From an uncultured Faecalibacterium sp. (GTDB lineage Bacteria > Bacillota > Clostridia > Oscillospirales > Ruminococcaceae), in contig CAJFNF010000049.1 of the NCBI GenBank assembly GCA_904394215.1, forward strand, positions 1 through 32,132: 32,132 bases of DNA, read 5' to 3'. A program made the translations under genes and the position numbers. Shown here in pieces: positions 21,461 through 28,157 of this stretch. The notes below the pieces were generated by a model. It was not told where the DNA came from. It ran no database searches and worked only from the letters and a program-made list of their open reading frames with translations. Positions within the stretch are counted from its first letter, which is position 1, and every line of letters begins with the position of its first letter.

Positions 21461-21738
21461 CGCCCCCTTGTCAGATCGCCCGTCTGTATAAATATCTCCT
21501 TTTATACAGCCAGCAGAAAACAATGGGCGGACGCTGTTTTTGCCTTGTTTTGGCATTTCCGGCCTTTATACGCGCTTTTTTGCAGGATTCACAAAAAATT
21601 CATACCTAACTCATAATCCGTCTCTATTTTTCTGATAGAAGAGTAGTGAGCCTCCTGCCGGCCCGCCGCAGGGCCGAAAAAACCAGACTTTTGCGCCGGT
21701 ATATGCATAAATTTTACCTTCCAACCGCAAAAAGCATC
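21461..21738. other. AT-rich non-coding interval before the tat operon
   Basis: Contains the inverted repeat CTGTATAAA-N8-TTTATACAG (21484-21509). A weak promoter-like pair is TTCACA near 21590 with CATAAT near 21613. No coding signal is seen, and base composition is clearly more AT-rich than the flanks. Confidence 0.45.
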
Positions 21739-21767
21739 TGGTCAAGACCAGCGGATTATGCTATACT
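21738..21767 (+). promoter_or_regulatory. Likely tat operon promoter with overlapping palindrome
   Basis: A TATACT -10 (21762-21767) lies 17 bp after TGGTCA (21739-21744). The perfect palindrome CTGGTC-AA-GACCAG (21738-21751) covers the -35, as an operator would. The leader to the first tat gene is about 115 nt and contains GGCCGGC/GCCGGC complementary arms. Confidence 0.5.
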
Positions 21768-21888
21768 TGCTGTGTCCGCAATTTGGCCGGCACCTGGAAT
21801 CCCCGGGGCCGGCACAGGCGGGGCATATCAATGCAGTCAAAGCAGCCGGTTTCCGGCCGGCCAGGAGACGGAAAGGAATCGTGTAAAC

Positions 21889-22440
21889 ATGAAGATCGGA
21901 TTTACCGAGCTGGTCGTCATCGTGATCGTGGCGTTTATATTCATCGGCCCCAGCCAGATGCCGGAATACGCACGCAAGCTGGGCAAGATGCTCCGCGATC
22001 TGCGCAAGTACACCAGCACCGCGTCCAAAGATATTCAGGAGAACATCGTTGAGCCGCTGAACGAGATCCAGCAGCCCCTGAAGGAGGCCATCTCCCCCCT
22101 GACGGATATCAAAAAGGATCTGGACAACAGTGTCAAGGACGTGACCAAGAGCTTTGCCGGCATCGGCAAGACCAGCAAGGACGAGGCTGAGGCCCAGGCT
22201 GCTGCCGCCGAGGAACCGGTGGAAGAGCTGGAGGAACTGAGCGAGGAGACCCCCGCCGTCCCTGAGGCCCAGGCTGCGCCGGCAGCTGCCGAAGCTGCCC
22301 CTGAAGCCGAGGCTGCACCCGCCGCTGCTGAAGCCGCCCCTGCCGCCGAGGCTGCACCCGCTGCCGAGGCTCCGGCCGAGCCCGCCGCAGCACCCGCCGA
22401 GGCTCCGGCCGAAACCGACAAGACCAGCGCTTCGGTTTAA
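21889..22440 (+). CDS. TatA/TatB-like translocase subunit with long Ala/Glu/Pro tail
   Basis: The 183-residue protein begins with a TatA/B-type membrane helix and hinge (FTELVVIVIVAFIFIGPSQMPEYARKLGKML). An amphipathic region and a charged helical stretch follow to about residue 100 (IVEPLNEIQQPLKEAISPL). The last 75 residues are almost only Ala, Glu and Pro. In Tat systems such subunits form or recruit the channel for folded proteins. Length and extended helices suggest a TatB-like role, with the next gene as TatA, but this is inference. GGAAAGG lies upstream. It heads a three-gene operon. Confidence 0.85.
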   Translation: MKIGFTELVVIVIVAFIFIGPSQMPEYARKLGKMLRDLRKYTSTASKDIQENIVEPLNEIQQPLKEAISPLTDIKKDLDNSVKDVTKSFAGIGKTSKDEAEAQAAAAEEPVEELEELSEETPAVPEAQAAPAAAEAAPEAEAAPAAAEAAPAAEAAPAAEAPAEPAAAPAEAPAETDKTSASV

Positions 22441-22535
22441 GCCCCAGTCCATCAACCCTGCAGCAAGCCGCAGAACGCGGCTGTGTAGACTAGTGTGACG
22501 GGCCCTGAGCCCGGAAAGTAAAAAGGAGAATTTCT

Positions 22536-22727
22536 ATGAAGATCGGCACTACTGAAATTGTCATGATTCTGATCGTCGTCCTGATCATCTTTGGACCCAA
22601 GAACCTGCCCAAGCTGGGCAAGATGTTCGGCCAGACCATGAAGGGCTTCAAGGAAGGCATCGACGACGATGATAACGCCGCCAAGAAGACTGAGACCAAG
22701 ACCGACAGCAAGAACGACGAGGAGTAA
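22536..22727 (+). CDS. tatA: Twin-arginine translocase subunit TatA
   Basis: This short 63-residue protein has the canonical TatA layout: N-terminal helix TEIVMILIVVLIIFGPKNLP with the FG-P hinge, the amphipathic helix KLGKMFGQTMKGFKEG, and a charged Lys/Asp/Glu tail. AAAAAGGAG lies upstream. Its stop is 2 nt before the tatC start. With the preceding TatA/B-like gene and tatC it makes a minimal Tat translocon. Confidence 0.95.
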   Translation: MKIGTTEIVMILIVVLIIFGPKNLPKLGKMFGQTMKGFKEGIDDDDNAAKKTETKTDSKNDEE

Positions 22728-22729
22728 TT

Positions 22730-23530
22730 GTGGCCACGAAATTTAAGCACAGAAAAGGCGCTGAGGAGATGGGCGACGACGGCAGCATGACGCTGAGCGG
22801 CCATCTGAGGGAGCTGCGCAACCGCGTGGTGATCTGTGCGGTCATCTATATCGTGGCAGCCGTCGGTTTCCTGGCCATCGCTGACCAGCTGATCGACTTT
22901 CTGACGGCCATGGCCGACGGAGCGTACAACTTCATCTCCATTGACCCCCAGGAAAAGCTGATCCAGTATTTCCGGGTCGCCTTGCTGGCCGCTCTGGTGG
23001 TCACCATCCCCTTCATCGCTTACCATGTATACGCCTTTGCCAAGCCCGGCCTGAAAAAGAGCGAGAGCTTTTTCTTCGGCCTGGTGCTGGTGATGGGCCT
23101 GGGCCTGTTTGTGGTGGGCGTGCTGTTCGCCTACTTCATCTCGCTGCCCTTCATGCTCAACTTTATGGGCACCCTGGCCGGCGCAGATTACATTGTCCAG
23201 ACCACCAGTATTGCCAGCTACATCAGTTTCTGCATCACCATCTTTTTGATCTTCGGTGCGGTCTTTGAGATGCCGCTGGTGGTCATCATCCTGGCCCGGA
23301 TGGGCATTGTCAGCCCCCAGCTGATGAAGAAGGCCCGCGGCGTCATGATCGTCCTGATCTTCTTTGTGGCGGCTGTCATTACTCCGCCCGATATCGTCTC
23401 CCAGACCATGGTGGCTCTGCCCATGTGCCTGCTGTATGTTATCAGCACGTACCTGTGCAAGATCTTCTACAAGAAGCCTCTGCTGGGCGGGGACGACGAC
23501 GAAGACGAGGAAGAGGAAGAGGAAGACTGA
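22730..23530 (+). CDS. tatC: Twin-arginine translocase subunit TatC
   Basis: The polytopic receptor of the Tat pathway for twin-arginine signal peptides; 266 residues with six membrane segments. Seen are the N-terminal LSGHLRELRNRV (the HLxELRxR hallmark), the conserved cytoplasmic loop FAKPGLKKSESFF with its glutamate, and VFEMPLVVIILARMGIVSP. It ends in an acidic tail of Asp and Glu. The start is GTG 22730 behind GAGGAG. An internal ATG at MGDDGSM is possible but less well placed. Confidence 0.95.
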   Translation: MATKFKHRKGAEEMGDDGSMTLSGHLRELRNRVVICAVIYIVAAVGFLAIADQLIDFLTAMADGAYNFISIDPQEKLIQYFRVALLAALVVTIPFIAYHVYAFAKPGLKKSESFFFGLVLVMGLGLFVVGVLFAYFISLPFMLNFMGTLAGADYIVQTTSIASYISFCITIFLIFGAVFEMPLVVIILARMGIVSPQLMKKARGVMIVLIFFVAAVITPPDIVSQTMVALPMCLLYVISTYLCKIFYKKPLLGGDDDEDEEEEEED

Positions 23531-23609: not shown

Positions 23610-24839
23610 TTAGTTTTTGGCGGCCGACCGGCCTGCCGTCAGGCCCGAGCCGAAGGCCCAGTGGAGGTTAAAGCCGCCGCAACTGCCGGCACAGTCCAGG
23701 GTTTCCCCCACAAAATACAGCCCGCGGCAGCCCTTCAGCTGGAAATCCGGCTCCAGCTCTTCCAGGGACAGACCGCCGCCGGTGGTCTGGGCCTGCTTCC
23801 AGCCGCAGAGGGTGGGGTTTTCAAACCGCCAGTCCTTGCACCGGGCCGCCAGGGCCTGCCAGTGGTCGGGCCCGGCCTGGGCCGGGCTGCCCAGGCCGGC
23901 GGCGGCCCAGAGGGCATCCCCCAGGCGCTGGTCCAGCAGCCCCTGCCAGAAGGTCCCGGGGCGGGGCAGGCCGGCGGCACGGCGGGCAAACAGCCCGGCC
24001 AGGGCCGGGACATCCCGGTCGGGGAACAGGTCCACCGCCAGGGCAGGCTGTTGCGGGCCACGGCCCGGGGCCAGCAGCCCCGACAGCTGCATCACGCAGA
24101 TCCCCGACAGGCCATAATTTGCAAACTGGATCTCCCCTTTTTCCCGGGCCAGGGGCTTGTCCCCATCCAGCAGGGCGACGGTGCCCCGGACCCGGATCCC
24201 CGACAGCTTTTGCAGCAGAGCCGGGTCCCCGCAGCGCAGAGGGGTCAGGCAGGGGTAGAGGGGTTCGCATTTGCCCCCGCACCGCCTGGCCAGGGCAGGG
24301 CCAAAGCCGCCGGTGCCAAACTGGGGCCCGGCGCTGCCTCCCAGGGCGCAGATCACCCGGTCCGCCGTCAGCAGCTGGCGCTTTCCTTCCTGTTCCACCT
24401 GGACGGCGTAGCGGCGGCCCTTCTGGCCCAGTTCCAGGATCCGGCAGCCGGTGCGGGACTGGATCCCCAGGGCTTCCACCCACTGCAGCAGCAGGCCGGT
24501 GAGGTCGGCGGCCTGGTTGGAGTAGGGGTACAGCCGGCCCTCCTCATCGGTGCGGGTCACCAGGCCCAGCCGCTCCCACCAGCCCAGCACATCGGCCTGG
24601 TCAATCACCCCCAGCAGGGCCGCCAAGGCCCCGGGGGCTGCGGTAAAATACCGGCCGGGATCGCTGCTGGCGGCGTTGTCCAGATTGCACCGGCCGTTGC
24701 CAGTGGCCAGCAGCTTTTTGCCGGGGGCGGGGTTCTGGTCCACCAGGGTCACACGGACCCCCTTGCCGCCGGTCTGGGCTGCGCCGATGGCGGCGGCCAG
24801 CCCCGAGGCACCCCCGCCCAGTATCAGGATTTCTTTCAT
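23610..24839 (-). CDS. BaiN/HI0933-family FAD-dependent oxidoreductase
   Basis: This 409-residue flavoprotein begins with the FAD-binding motif ILILGGGASGLAAAIGAA and has the family signature PGKKLLATGNGRCNLDN. The C-terminal FAD-binding segment is GLYFVGETLDCAGSCGGFNLHWAFGSGLTAG. The family (HI0933, YhiN, BaiN) has few assigned functions; some members reduce unsaturated bile acid intermediates. It lies 58 nt downstream of the DUF4130 gene, same strand, and is probably the last gene of the S24-repressor operon. An electron-donor role for the radical-SAM enzyme is conceivable but only inference. Confidence 0.88.
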   Translation of the reverse strand: MKEILILGGGASGLAAAIGAAQTGGKGVRVTLVDQNPAPGKKLLATGNGRCNLDNAASSDPGRYFTAAPGALAALLGVIDQADVLGWWERLGLVTRTDEEGRLYPYSNQAADLTGLLLQWVEALGIQSRTGCRILELGQKGRRYAVQVEQEGKRQLLTADRVICALGGSAGPQFGTGGFGPALARRCGGKCEPLYPCLTPLRCGDPALLQKLSGIRVRGTVALLDGDKPLAREKGEIQFANYGLSGICVMQLSGLLAPGRGPQQPALAVDLFPDRDVPALAGLFARRAAGLPRPGTFWQGLLDQRLGDALWAAAGLGSPAQAGPDHWQALAARCKDWRFENPTLCGWKQAQTTGGGLSLEELEPDFQLKGCRGLYFVGETLDCAGSCGGFNLHWAFGSGLTAGRSAAKN

Positions 24840-24897
24840 CTCGCCCGACCTCCTGTTGTGTTGCTGGCTTCAGTATACCATAGCCCCGGCTGCCAAA

Positions 24898-25671
24898 TCA
24901 AACCTGATCCCGCAGCTCGGTGAGGTCGGCCCAATACCGCTTGGGGCAGTTGTTCCGACGGCACCGCTCATTCCGGCGGCCCGCAATGGCCAGGGTGTCA
25001 TAGAACTGTTTCCACAGCTTCTGATATTCCGACTCGGCGGCGTCGGGTTCGGGCAGGGACAGGGGGGCGGTGACCCGCTCCAAACGGGTCTGCCCCGCCT
25101 GATGCAGCAGGGCTTCCCGGTGGGTGGCGTCATAAATCAGAAAATCTTCTCCCCCCAGCCGGGCGCAGAAAAAAGGCCGCAGCAGGGGCAGAACGTGGTT
25201 TTTGGGGTGGATCACCGCGCCCAGCATCCCCTGGCTCTCCTCAAACCGGACAAAGCCCCGGTATTTTTCCGCCTCCCACTCCACGCTGCGCACCAGCCCC
25301 TGGGCCTGGGCCACCTCGGGGCGGCCCAGCTGCCGGAGGGCTGCCGGGCCCTTTCCAAACCCGTGGTGGAGGTACCGCAGCAGGACCAGCTCTTTATCCG
25401 GCTGCCCCGACAGGAAGCCGATGGCCGCCGTTTTGGAGGCAGCAGGGCCCAGCTTTTCCCGGATGCCCCGCCGGACCCGGCCCGCCCGGCCGGCATCGGT
25501 GACAATCTCCCGCGCCGGGCAGAGGGAGGGCTGTTCCTCCTCCGGGGGCCAGATGGCAAAGGGCAGTTCCCGCCGGGCAAAGCTCTCAAAGACGCAGCTG
25601 AAAAAGCCGGCCAGGCTGCCGTCGTAGCAGTAGATGACGTCGGCTTCCCTCACAGGGTGTTGGCCAGACAT
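24898..25671 (-). CDS. TIGR03915/DUF4130-family DNA metabolism protein
   Basis: The 257-residue protein matches the family labelled probable DNA metabolism protein: start VIYCYDGSLAGFFSCVFESF, middle VRRGIREKLGP and HHGFGKGPAALRQLG, then WEAEKYRGFVRFEE and a C-terminal RYWADLTEL preceded by two cysteines. In other bacteria the domain is fused to uracil-DNA glycosylase-like (UdgX-type) modules or sits beside the TIGR03916 radical-SAM protein. Here it stands alone and overlaps that gene by 22 nt. ATG 25671 follows AGGAGGAGG. Biochemical function is not known to me. Confidence 0.88.
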   Translation of the reverse strand: MSGQHPVREADVIYCYDGSLAGFFSCVFESFARRELPFAIWPPEEEQPSLCPAREIVTDAGRAGRVRRGIREKLGPAASKTAAIGFLSGQPDKELVLLRYLHHGFGKGPAALRQLGRPEVAQAQGLVRSVEWEAEKYRGFVRFEESQGMLGAVIHPKNHVLPLLRPFFCARLGGEDFLIYDATHREALLHQAGQTRLERVTAPLSLPEPDAAESEYQKLWKQFYDTLAIAGRRNERCRRNNCPKRYWADLTELRDQV

Positions 25672-27011
25672 TGGACCGCCTCCTCCTGGACCAGACGGCC
25701 CGCCAGCCGGGGCGGGGTGCCCTGGGCGGCCAGCTGCTGGACCGCAGGCGCGCTGAACAGGCTCAGCTGTTCGCAGCCTGCATTGAATACGCCGGGGTCG
25801 ATGAGGGCCCGGGCAATCCGCTGGCGCCGGGCGCTGCCCCGGCCGCCGCCGGCCCCGGTGAATCCCCGGCAGGTGATGAAATACTGGGCCCGCTTGAGGA
25901 CTACCCCCATCCGCTTCAGTTCCTCCAGGCCCAGGGAGCCCTGGCGCCGGGCGGTGCGGATCCGCTGGGCGCTCTTGACGCCGATCCCCGGCACCCGCAG
26001 CAGCATCTCATAGGGGGCACGGTTGATATCCACCGGAAACTGTTCCAGGTGCTGCACCGCCCAACCGCACTTGGGGTCCAGGTAGGGGCTGAAATAAGGG
26101 CTGGAGGGGTCCAGGATTTCCTCGGCCCGGAACTGGTAAAACCGCAGCAGCCAGTCTGCCTGGTACAGCCGGTGCTCCCGCACCAGGGGCGGCCTGGTGT
26201 CCAGGGCGGGCAGGCGGCTGTCCTCTGCCACCGGGATATAGGCCGAATAAAAGACCCGCCGCAGGCTGTATTTGTGGTACAGCCCTTCGGTGAGGCGGAG
26301 GATCTGATAGTCGGTCTCGGGGGTTGCCCCCACAATCATCTGGGTGCTCTGGCCCGCCGGGGCAAAGGCGGGTGCATGGCGGTAAAGGGACAGCTCCTCC
26401 CGGCTGGCAGCAGCCGCGGCGGCAATCTGGCCCATGGGGCGAAGGATCTCCCTGCGGCCCTTGTCGGGGGCCAGCAGGTTCAGGCTGCGCTCACTGGGCA
26501 GCTCTATATTGACGCTGAGGCGGTCGGCCAGGCAGCCCAGCCGCTGGATCAGGGCAGGGCTGGTGCCTGGGATGGCCTTGGCGTGGATGTAGCCGTGGAA
26601 GCCGTATTCTTCCCGCAGCAGCCGCAGCACCTCGATCATCCGTTCGGTGGTGTAGTCGGCTGTGCCCAGCACAGCGCTGGACAAAAACAGCCCCTCGATG
26701 TAGTTGCGGCGGTAAAAGGCAATGGTCAGGTCGGCCAGCTCCCGGGGCGTAAAGGTGGCCCGGGGCAGGTCGTTGCTGCGGCGGTTGACGCAGTAGGCGC
26801 AGTCAAAGGAGCAGCAGTTGGTCATCAGCACCTTCAGCAGGCTGACGCACCGGCCGTCGGCGGTAAAGGCGTGGCAGCAGCCGGGGGCATAGCAGCTGCC
26901 CAGGCCCCCGGCCTTGCCGCTCCGGCGGGTGGAACCGCTGGAGGTACAGGCCACATCGTATTTGGCGCTGTCGGCCAAAATGGTCAGCTTTTCCATCACC
27001 GACTGTTCCAT
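25650..27011 (-). CDS. TIGR03916-family radical-SAM DNA modification/repair protein with HhH motif
   Basis: The 453-residue protein carries the radical-SAM motif Cys67-SFD-Cys71-AY-Cys74 for a [4Fe-4S] cluster. Extra cysteines in the N-terminal segment (GSCYAPGCCHAF) could hold another metal centre. A helix-hairpin-helix at about 340-395 (INRAPYEMLLRVPGIGVKSAQRI) is a non-specific DNA-binding element. The family is annotated as putative DNA repair/modification; the substrate lesion or base is unknown. ATG 27011 has GGAGGG 6 nt upstream. It is 25 nt behind the S24 repressor and overlaps the DUF4130 gene, so the three are translationally close. Confidence 0.92.
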   Translation of the reverse strand: MEQSVMEKLTILADSAKYDVACTSSGSTRRSGKAGGLGSCYAPGCCHAFTADGRCVSLLKVLMTNCCSFDCAYCVNRRSNDLPRATFTPRELADLTIAFYRRNYIEGLFLSSAVLGTADYTTERMIEVLRLLREEYGFHGYIHAKAIPGTSPALIQRLGCLADRLSVNIELPSERSLNLLAPDKGRREILRPMGQIAAAAAASREELSLYRHAPAFAPAGQSTQMIVGATPETDYQILRLTEGLYHKYSLRRVFYSAYIPVAEDSRLPALDTRPPLVREHRLYQADWLLRFYQFRAEEILDPSSPYFSPYLDPKCGWAVQHLEQFPVDINRAPYEMLLRVPGIGVKSAQRIRTARRQGSLGLEELKRMGVVLKRAQYFITCRGFTGAGGGRGSARRQRIARALIDPGVFNAGCEQLSLFSAPAVQQLAAQGTPPRLAGRLVQEEAVQCLANTL

Positions 27012-27036
27012 GGCGCACCCTCCCTGGGGCCGGGGG

Positions 27037-27669
27037 TCACCACTTGGTCTTGGTTTCCACCACCCGGCCTGCAATGTGGAGCCGGTTCAGGTCCTCGCCT
27101 TTGATGACCAGCTCGCTGTAATTGGGGTTGAAGGGCTGCAGCACAACGCTGTTGCCCCGCTGGATGTAGCGCTTGAGGGTGCCTTCACCCTCGTCGCCGT
27201 AGATGATAACCCCCAGGTCCCCGCTTTCCAGGGTGTCCTGGCGGTGGACCAGGGCCAGGTCCCCGTCCTGAATCCGGGGCTCCATGCTGTCCCCCCGGAC
27301 CACCAGATAGAAGTAGTTGGCCGGGTCTTTCACCCGGGCATATTCCTTGCCGTAGTCCTCCTCAAAGGCCAGGGCACCATAGCCCGCCTTGACGGTGCCG
27401 ATCACCGGAATCAGGCTCTCGGCATAGCCCCCAAAAAAGCGGCTTTCGGTTTCGGTGAGGTCGGCGGCGGGCTGGTACAGTCCCAGCAGATAGTCGGCCG
27501 TGGTGCCCAGAATCCCCGCAATCCGGGCCACGGTGGAGGGGTCGGGGGAGGACTTGCCGCTCTCCCACTTGCCCACCGCCTGCTGGGTCACCCCCAGCCG
27601 GGCGGCCAGCTCGGCCTGGCTGATCTTCTGCTTTTTGCGGCACTGCTTCAGCAGCTCAGAAAATGACAT
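27037..27669 (-). CDS. CI/LexA-like repressor: HTH_3 plus S24 self-cleaving peptidase
   Basis: The 210-residue regulator has an N-terminal Cro/CI helix-turn-helix (ISQAELAARLGVTQQAVGKWESG) and a C-terminal S24 domain. Residues needed for RecA-stimulated self-cleavage are present: a candidate Ala95-Gly96 cleavage site (VKAGYG), Ser128 (GDSMEP) and Lys166 (GTLKRY). It should repress until DNA damage triggers cleavage. It is the first gene of a minus-strand operon with the radical-SAM repair pair. A palindrome covers its own -10, consistent with autorepression. The HTH is CI-type, so it is not the housekeeping LexA; prophage origin is possible. ATG 27669 follows AAAGGGG. Confidence 0.9.
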   Translation of the reverse strand: MSFSELLKQCRKKQKISQAELAARLGVTQQAVGKWESGKSSPDPSTVARIAGILGTTADYLLGLYQPAADLTETESRFFGGYAESLIPVIGTVKAGYGALAFEEDYGKEYARVKDPANYFYLVVRGDSMEPRIQDGDLALVHRQDTLESGDLGVIIYGDEGEGTLKRYIQRGNSVVLQPFNPNYSELVIKGEDLNRLHIAGRVVETKTKW

Positions 27670-27710
27670 GTAGAACGCCCCTTTGTTCGCCGGCATACTG
27701 CCGGTTATTC

Positions 27711-27748
27711 TTTGGTTTTATTATACAACCAAAAAGTGTCCCTGTAAA
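27711..27748 (-). promoter_or_regulatory. Repressor operon promoter with palindromic operator
   Basis: Minus strand TTTACA (27743-27748) and TATAAT (27720-27725), 17 bp apart. TTTGGTT-N9-AACCAAA (27711-27733) is a perfect palindrome spanning the -10, the expected position for autorepression. A CCGGC/GCCGG hairpin (27690-27704) lies in the leader. Confidence 0.75.
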
Positions 27749-27789: not shown

Positions 27790-27818
27790 TTGACAACAAC
27801 CAGCGTTTGGTTTATCAT
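27790..27818 (+). promoter_or_regulatory. Divergent promoter with related operator in the spacer
   Basis: TTGACA (27790-27795) and TATCAT (27813-27818), 17 bp apart. AACCA-N5-TGGTT (27798-27812) occupies the spacer and shares TTGGTT/AACCA half-sites with the operator on the opposite promoter. ACAAC-TTACA-GTTGT (27831-27845) lies just downstream. Confidence 0.75.
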
Positions 27819-27884
27819 AGAGGCGCAAGAACAACTTACAGTTGTCCATTCAGTTGTAAAACCGTGCTGAGGAGGCTTTGTGAT

Positions 27885-28157
27885 ATGAAGTGCCTGTTGT
27901 GGAAATGCTGGATTCTGACAGTGGCCCTGGGCCTGCTGATGGCGCTGGGCGCTTTTGCCGAGGGAACCATTGGGCTGGCATCTGCCGCCGCCTGCACCCT
28001 CGGTGCGGTTTATCTGATGCGCTGGTCCTGGGCCATGGAGCAGCGGGCGGAACGTCAGGCCGCCCTGCGCCGCCGCAAAGCCCATCCTGTCCCCCGAAAC
28101 GCCTCCGTCAGGCCTTCGGTCTCCGCCTCCCGCGATGCTTTGCAGGCAGCTTCCTGA
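27885..28157 (+). CDS. Small membrane protein divergent from the S24 repressor, unknown function
   Basis: This 90-residue protein has an N-terminal hydrophobic part (ILTVALGLLMALGAFA, then IGLASAAACTLGAVYLM, one or two membrane segments) and a basic cytoplasmic-type tail (RAERQAALRRRKAHP). I do not recognise a family. ATG follows GAGGAGG. Its consensus promoter carries an operator-like repeat similar to that of the S24 repressor, so it is probably part of the same regulon. In SOS systems small membrane proteins often arrest division or depolarise membranes; that role here is only a hypothesis. Confidence 0.7.
   Translation: MKCLLWKCWILTVALGLLMALGAFAEGTIGLASAAACTLGAVYLMRWSWAMEQRAERQAALRRRKAHPVPRNASVRPSVSASRDALQAAS

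Follow-up and report, generated by a model that had tools for sequence, protein, structure and literature searches.

A 434-type S24 repressor that probably takes the place of LexA in Faecalibacterium and its closer relatives

The window analyzed here, the whole 32,132-nucleotide stretch of contig CAJFNF010000049.1 (assembly GCA_904394215.1) from an uncultured Faecalibacterium sp., encodes on its minus strand a 210-amino-acid repressor of the S24 type, here termed REP (positions 27037–27669; residues are numbered from the ATG at 27669), followed by a radical-SAM gene (rSAM) and a DUF4130 gene, together referred to as the pair. We propose, at a probability of roughly 85%, that REP replaces LexA in Faecalibacterium and in those of its relatives whose REP is at least 67% identical, among them Gemmiger, Subdoligranulum and Fournierella. 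Because genomes with a strong REP lack full-length LexA, because predicted REP operators lie at recA and uvrB, and because the pair often carries LexA-type boxes in other genomes, a LexA-substitute role for REP and a conserved SOS role for the pair appear the most likely reading.

The repressor and its distribution relative to LexA

REP consists of a Pfam HTH_3 domain (residues 7–61), a helix-turn-helix (HTH), and a Peptidase_S24 domain. The best match of its HTH in the PDB was the 434 repressor, and both proteins have TQQ in the recognition helix. The first-pass annotation of this DNA had pointed to Ala95-Gly96, Ser128 and Lys166 as the self-cleavage residues; these were found at exactly those positions, and both the Ala-Gly bond and the Ser-Lys dyad were invariant in an alignment of 15 of the 28 genus orthologs, in which the 14 sequences besides the REP of the window are 75–98% identical to it. 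The TQQ of the recognition helix was likewise invariant in these 15 proteins, as expected if the operator is constant.

REP thus has the Ala-Gly bond and Ser-Lys dyad of canonical LexA, and, as for canonical LexA, operators are predicted for it at the repressor gene itself and at recA and uvrB. It differs from canonical LexA in its N-terminal domain, which is a Cro/C1-type HTH (HTH_3, with the 434 repressor closest in the PDB) and not a winged helix, in its operator, and in its score against the LexA model TIGR00498, which reached 65.9 bits, below the cut-off of 110.95, through a match spanning model positions 77–196 only.

Of 31 Faecalibacterium genomes, 28 encode REP at an identity of at least 75%. 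None of the 31 had a TIGR00498 match above the cut-off, which was exceeded in 6 of 14 control genomes; the matches below the cut-off within the genus included REP and other S24 proteins. The survey was then widened to 247 genomes of the family, in which REP was called strong at 274 bits or more and weak at 241–262 bits, and genomes with nothing at 241 bits or above were counted as REP-less. Strong REP occurred in 39 of the 247 genomes, spanning 17 genera. Full-length LexA was present in 0 of these 39 genomes, compared with 130 of the 201 REP-less ones. A contig scan further yielded 85 REP loci, of which 80 named ones were kept, some from the same genomes as the 31; they belong to Faecalibacterium, Gemmiger, Subdoligranulum, Fournierella, Ruthenibacterium and others, and their REP proteins are 56–100% identical to that of the window.

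Operators at REP, recA, uvrB and a polymerase operon

Comparison of the REP promoters of the genus revealed a conserved 15-bp palindrome, ACAAC-N5-GTTGT. The operator of the 434 repressor runs ACAA...TTGT, and the palindrome is consistent with a 434-type recognition by REP. Exact copies were present in all 31 Faecalibacterium genomes, with one to four in each and 52 in total. In this tally, 48 of the 52 were located at REP (16), recA (30) or uvrB (2); of the remaining four, one lay at the promoter of another S24 gene (genome G008) and three were unassigned (G001, G010 and G015).

In the window, a promoter of the REP operon was recognized by eye on the minus strand at 27720–27748, with a −35 element TTTACA (27748–27743), a 17-nucleotide spacer and a −10 element TATAAT (27725–27720), and a similar promoter was seen in the upstream regions of the genus. 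Between the −35 and −10 elements lies ACACT-TTTTG-GTTGT (27725–27739, minus strand), which departs from the operator at two positions. An exact operator, ACAACTTACAGTTGT, is found at 27831–27845 and follows the −10 element of a divergent plus-strand promoter (TTGACA-N17-TATCAT, 27790–27818, by eye), the spacer of which carries another two-mismatch operator at 27796–27810. A different palindrome covering the −10 element (TTTGGTTGTATAATAAAACCAAA, minus strand, 27733–27711) had earlier been taken for the operator; it was rejected, being intact in just 1 of 28 Faecalibacterium REP promoters, with TGGTT-N9-AACCA intact in 4 of the 28.

Within 250 bp upstream of the 28 genus REP genes, the best site was exact in 13 promoters, had one mismatch in 14 and two in one, that of genome G007, where an exact site stood further up. 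Among the named loci, 64 of 78 had an exact operator within 620 bp upstream of REP (loci L168 and L207 offered too little upstream sequence and were left out of the 80).

An exact operator also lay upstream of recA in 30 of the 31 genus genomes, starting 77–119 bp before the aligned start codon. In the remaining genome, G010, recA was not sought; its assembly is 80% complete. Across these sites the ten half-site bases were invariant, and ten different N5 cores occurred. When the 30 recA upstream regions were shuffled, an exact copy arose in 2 of 9000 shuffles, and the recA operator therefore stands above chance. Outside the main genus block, recA was examined at 30 of 59 REP loci, 28 of which gave recA, and 18 of these 28 REP-positive genomes carried the exact operator. 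The split followed REP identity: the site was present in 18 of 18 genomes with REP 67–74% identical and in 0 of 10 with REP 56–63% identical. This suggests a stepwise recruitment of recA into the REP regulon; as control of REP and the pair alone is supported in the genera with diverged REP, recA would seem either to have joined the regulon at a later stage or to have dropped out of it. The relatives lacking the recA site, which have the most diverged REP, are loci L209, L210, L224, L225, L229–L233 and L235. Seven of these ten still hold an exact site near REP (L193, L194, L196, L197, L200, L201 and L206).

Next, uvrB was sought in 30 chosen REP-positive or Faecalibacterium genomes; it was matched in 25 and not in five. 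With G019 left out because the start of the gene is missing, 24 readable starts remained, upstream of which eight sites were exact, 11 had one mismatch and one had two, and four regions had none. Where present, the operator mostly stood just 3′ of the −10 element, as judged by eye. Furthermore, both genomes examined for it (G000 and G017) have a one-mismatch operator at the promoter of an operon of two genes, the second of which encodes a Y-family polymerase, the polymerase being assigned by the Pfam IMS match of the G017 copy. Under the same operator, a protein of about 100 amino acids precedes the polymerase (L336:1518–1850 and L376:1163–1500); the copy tested had no Pfam match. In the stretches read around operators, 11 in G000 (L333 and L335–L344) and 14 in G017 in addition to the G017 uvrB stretch (L334), uvrB and the polymerase operon were the only conspicuous repair genes, and the remainder were coding-like or unassigned.

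On these grounds we envisage that REP would bind ACAAC-N5-GTTGT via its 434-type recognition helix and would repress itself, the pair, recA and uvrB, together with the Y-family polymerase operon in the two genomes where this was examined. Upon DNA damage, RecA filaments would trigger cleavage of REP at Ala95-Gly96 by Ser128/Lys166, and the repressed genes would then be released. Predicted operators at both its own gene and recA, which an SOS master repressor should have, were found in Faecalibacterium and were absent at recA in the ten diverged relatives; for these more diverged genera, only control of REP and the pair may be supposed.

The rSAM/DUF4130 pair and the neighboring genes

The pair occupies 25650–27011 (rSAM, 453 amino acids, with a helix-hairpin-helix) and 24898–25671 (DUF4130 protein, 257 amino acids), both on the minus strand. 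The former matched TIGR03916 (rSAM_link_UDG) at 647.3 bits (cut-off 343.5) and the latter matched TIGR03915 at 209.4 bits (cut-off 112.25). In 31 aligned rSAM sequences out of 50, C67-x3-C71-x2-C74 and the helix-hairpin-helix motif P341-G342-x-G344 were invariant. Only TIGR03916, the generic Radical_SAM model and HHH_3 were hit by rSAM, and no SplB family model matched at E 0.001; Pfam and family models found no uracil-DNA glycosylase (UDG) domain in the DUF4130 protein of the window. The structure of the DUF4130 protein, of which 41 sequences out of 50 were aligned, was predicted confidently (pLDDT 92.7), and its Foldseek matches were weak (TM-scores of 0.34 or less), the first ones being mostly DHH-type phosphoesterases (8a8k, RecJ, PggH and NrnA). 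The predicted structure of rSAM was poor (pLDDT 69.8).

The two genes were adjacent in 50 of 50 loci, and TIGR03916 and TIGR03915 were found in the same 20 of the 31 Faecalibacterium genomes. The adjacency of REP and the pair, on which the first-pass annotation had built, proved to be conserved: all 20 Faecalibacterium loci with the pair had REP directly upstream of it, and in 65 of the 80 named loci rSAM followed REP in the same orientation at a distance of no more than 1.3 kb; DUF4130 was visible in 61 of these 65. Eight named loci, seven of them from Faecalibacterium, had no rSAM behind REP, and seven further contigs ended too soon. At the family level, the pair was above the cut-offs in 36 of the 39 strong-REP genomes: in 30 it shares the strand of REP and lies about 1.1 kb or less away, in three it is nearby on the opposite strand, and in three it is unlinked. 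In two of these 30, from two genera (L345 and L346), a gene that looks by eye like a histidine phosphatase lies between REP and rSAM.

All three unlinked pairs had an exact ACAAC-N5-GTTGT plus a one-mismatch copy in their promoters. Two of the opposite-strand pairs, in G194 and G260, had an exact operator ahead of rSAM, at a distance of 347 and 386 bp, respectively, and a frame ending ..RAA just 5′ of rSAM (by eye); for the third, in G105, no operator with two mismatches or fewer was found in 420 bp. At 64 pair loci not behind REP, two of them without upstream sequence, ACAAC-N5-GTTGT occurred upstream in none. Instead, GAAC-N4-GTTC, which we take to be the Gram-positive LexA box, was present in 36 of the 64 in the 300 bp preceding rSAM, namely in 33 of 55 loci from genomes with LexA and 3 of 9 from genomes without it. 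Its density was 42 in 18,866 upstream bases versus 0 in 76,767 rSAM coding bases. The earlier suggestion that a repressor of the self-cleaving type controls a pair resembling damage-response genes is thus supported both by the REP operators at the unlinked pairs and by the LexA-type boxes elsewhere. Most likely, the pair belongs to the conserved SOS genes and has passed from one regulator to another: it would be an SOS effector under LexA-type boxes in the relatives, its operator having changed along with the regulator. It would most likely perform an SOS-induced lesion-processing step. The accessible part of PMC3765255 connects DUF4130, from its genomic context, with radical SAM proteins and UDG and predicts a mutagenesis-related enzyme. 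The families are the same here; the difference from those systems, as far as that part describes them, is that the operators of two repressors tie the pair to SOS and that the member in the window contains no UDG domain.

The term "dedicated", used earlier for the regulator, does not hold, as eight Faecalibacterium genomes contain REP without the pair and the operator also stands at recA and uvrB. In these eight genomes the gene next to REP encodes a flavoprotein (four genomes) or a cyclophilin-like protein (four, by eye), and the pair therefore behaves as a removable block.

In the window, the fourth minus-strand gene (23610–24839) encodes an HI0933-like flavoprotein matching TIGR00275. Re-reading of the coordinates returned the arrangement of the four genes as first described, with a 25-nucleotide gap, a 22-nucleotide overlap and a 58-nucleotide gap, and Pfam and family models returned the same gene families. 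The flavoprotein had been suggested as a possible electron donor for rSAM. This was not upheld, and a functional partnership with the pair was rejected, because the flavoprotein gene adjoins REP in four genomes without the pair and does not follow the pair in the other subclade, where a different gene takes its place. The flavoprotein is a clade-specific neighbor outside the module, tracking the clade rather than the pair. Convergent with its gene, two TatA-like frames and one TatC-like frame were noted by eye on the plus strand (21646–23530).

On the other side of REP, the divergent gene (27885–28157, plus strand) encodes a 90-amino-acid protein with a hydrophobic segment and the C terminus LQAAS, and its promoter region carries the operators described above. 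An open reading frame (ORF) of this kind, selected by length, hydrophobicity and ribosome site but not by C terminus, was present upstream of REP in 69 of the 78 named loci and missing in eight F. prausnitzii-type loci and L184; a few picks (e.g., that in L202) look spurious. Its C-terminal residue was Ala in 66 of the 69, and 51 ended in AA or AAS. In control windows from the same set of loci, such an ORF was found in 32 of 990, with a terminal Ala in 6 of the 32. No naming match was obtained in Pfam or NCBIfam. According to the accessible text of PMC6851548, sosA and yneA are divergent to lexA, and the C terminus of SosA governs its turnover. The protein of the window resembles SosA and YneA as a small membrane protein divergent from an SOS repressor gene; it differs in having no family match and is likened to them by position and regulation. 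By this analogy, we regard it as a candidate SOS division inhibitor.

Alternative explanations, known systems and implications

Several observations weigh against REP as a LexA substitute. Full-length LexA was also absent from 71 of the 201 REP-less genomes, and it co-occurred with REP in five of seven genomes of the weaker-REP grey zone (241–262 bits). Two strong-REP genomes, G171 and G240, had an S24-only match above the LexA cut-off; these were left out of the LexA tally because they cover model positions 79–198 only. Relatedness among the genomes inflates all such counts. As to the operator, the best site carries one mismatch in 14 of the 28 Faecalibacterium REP promoters. Operators with at most one mismatch numbered 31 in G000, 48 in G017 and 39 in G030, and a reversed-pattern control exceeded them with 127, 142 and 129 matches, respectively, so a lone one-mismatch match says little. 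No site with zero or one mismatch was found within 220 bp of recA in 10 of the 28 REP-positive relatives, and these are exactly those with REP 56–63% identical. The presumed LexA box was exact in 0 of 10 lexA loci (L283–L292) and occurred with one mismatch near lexA in two of nine placed loci. Moreover, a second S24 family exists, one member of which, in G008, has an exact operator at its promoter, and the entire case is an inference from sequence.

It is this second family that supplies the alternative surviving best, which we nevertheless consider improbable: the operator would belong to another regulator, for example a second-family protein (Cys-Gly at the cleavage position), and REP would be just one of its targets. 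Non-REP S24 matches below the LexA cut-off do occur in most genus genomes, and among the members read, besides the exact site in the G008 promoter, one-mismatch sites lay near those of G030 and G002. However, the HTH of these members differs from that of REP and their promoters look unlike by eye, the TQQ of the REP recognition helix is as invariant in the 15 aligned orthologs as a constant operator would predict, and REP promoters hold exact sites in most named loci. The second-family proteins L251, L253–L255 and L081–L084 have Cys-Gly at the cleavage place and an HTH unlike that of REP.

Very unlikely, in our judgment, is that REP is a dedicated local regulator of its own operon and that the recA sites belong elsewhere. 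The close adjacency of REP and the pair, and the missing recA site in the ten most diverged REP-positive genomes tested, would fit such a role, but REP is kept without the pair in eight genomes, exact recA sites occur in 30 of 31 genus genomes, and uvrB sites with zero or one mismatch occur in 19 of 24. Least credible of all is a prophage repressor still serving mainly a prophage, with the recA and uvrB sites secondary, since despite the phage-like HTH and architecture of REP no prophage genes were recognized by eye among its neighbors in the genus loci read, 769 of 770 phage records matching REP were below 60% identity (at most 36% among the matches listed), and REP is present in 28 of 31 genus genomes. 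One 4.6-kb unannotated fecal phage record, MT839076.1, encodes a protein 82% identical to REP and is probably Faecalibacterium DNA.

The replacement of LexA by an S24 repressor is of a known kind, with cases in Streptococcaceae, Bacteroidetes and Francisella. HdiR of Streptococcaceae, as described in the accessible text of PMC8565304, regulates itself and, in S. thermophilus, the cinA-recA and umuC loci. REP resembles it, as an analogue only, in being an HTH-plus-S24 repressor of Firmicutes without LexA that is predicted to regulate itself and recA; for HdiR, that text mentions neither uvrB nor the rSAM/DUF4130 pair nor a small membrane protein encoded divergently. The same source assigns to the noncanonical LexA of Bacteroidetes, for which it reports no relatives outside that group, the operators GGA-N5-TCC or CTAA-N5-TTAG. 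The likeness to REP lies in a phage-type HTH (PF01381) joined to S24, an N5-spaced palindrome and an SOS network without canonical LexA, and the difference in the operator sequence, as ACAAC-N5-GTTGT fits neither pattern. "Faecalibacterium", "Clostridi-" and "uvrB" do not occur in the accessible text of PMC8565304. FddR of Francisella (PMC13148647, accessible part) is likewise a damage-response repressor with PF01381 and S24 in a lineage without LexA; it differs in grouping with lambdoid phage repressors and in that recA is not induced. In the open-access PMC literature, we found no report of a protein standing in for LexA in Faecalibacterium or Gemmiger, and neither REP, its operator and targets nor their link to the pair and the small membrane protein were found there.

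A fuller scenario, for and against which we see the balance as about even, is that in Faecalibacterium, Gemmiger and kin LexA was swapped for a 434-type S24 repressor, whose new operator came to control first REP and the pair and then recA, uvrB and the Y-family polymerase, and that this system has a checkpoint of its own, in which a new family of Ala-ended small membrane proteins, divergent from REP, would halt division and be cleared by C-terminal proteolysis.

The observation made in the first-pass annotation was thus real but underrated, as the window probably codes for the master repressor of the SOS response in Faecalibacterium and its close relatives. If the classical Gram-positive LexA motif were used for a search, the SOS genes of Faecalibacterium and Gemmiger would probably be overlooked; a survey of SOS in the gut based on such a motif (PMC3998124) leaves Faecalibacterium unmentioned in its main text, as far as that text was accessible. 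The orphan rSAM/DUF4130 pair gains a functional context through the SOS-type operators of two different repressors. Because LexA-bearing and REP-bearing genera stand side by side, the family would offer a case of regulator replacement within a single family with part of the regulon retained, and ACAAC-N5-GTTGT provides a testable operator for work on DNA damage, prophages and mutagenesis in these commensals.

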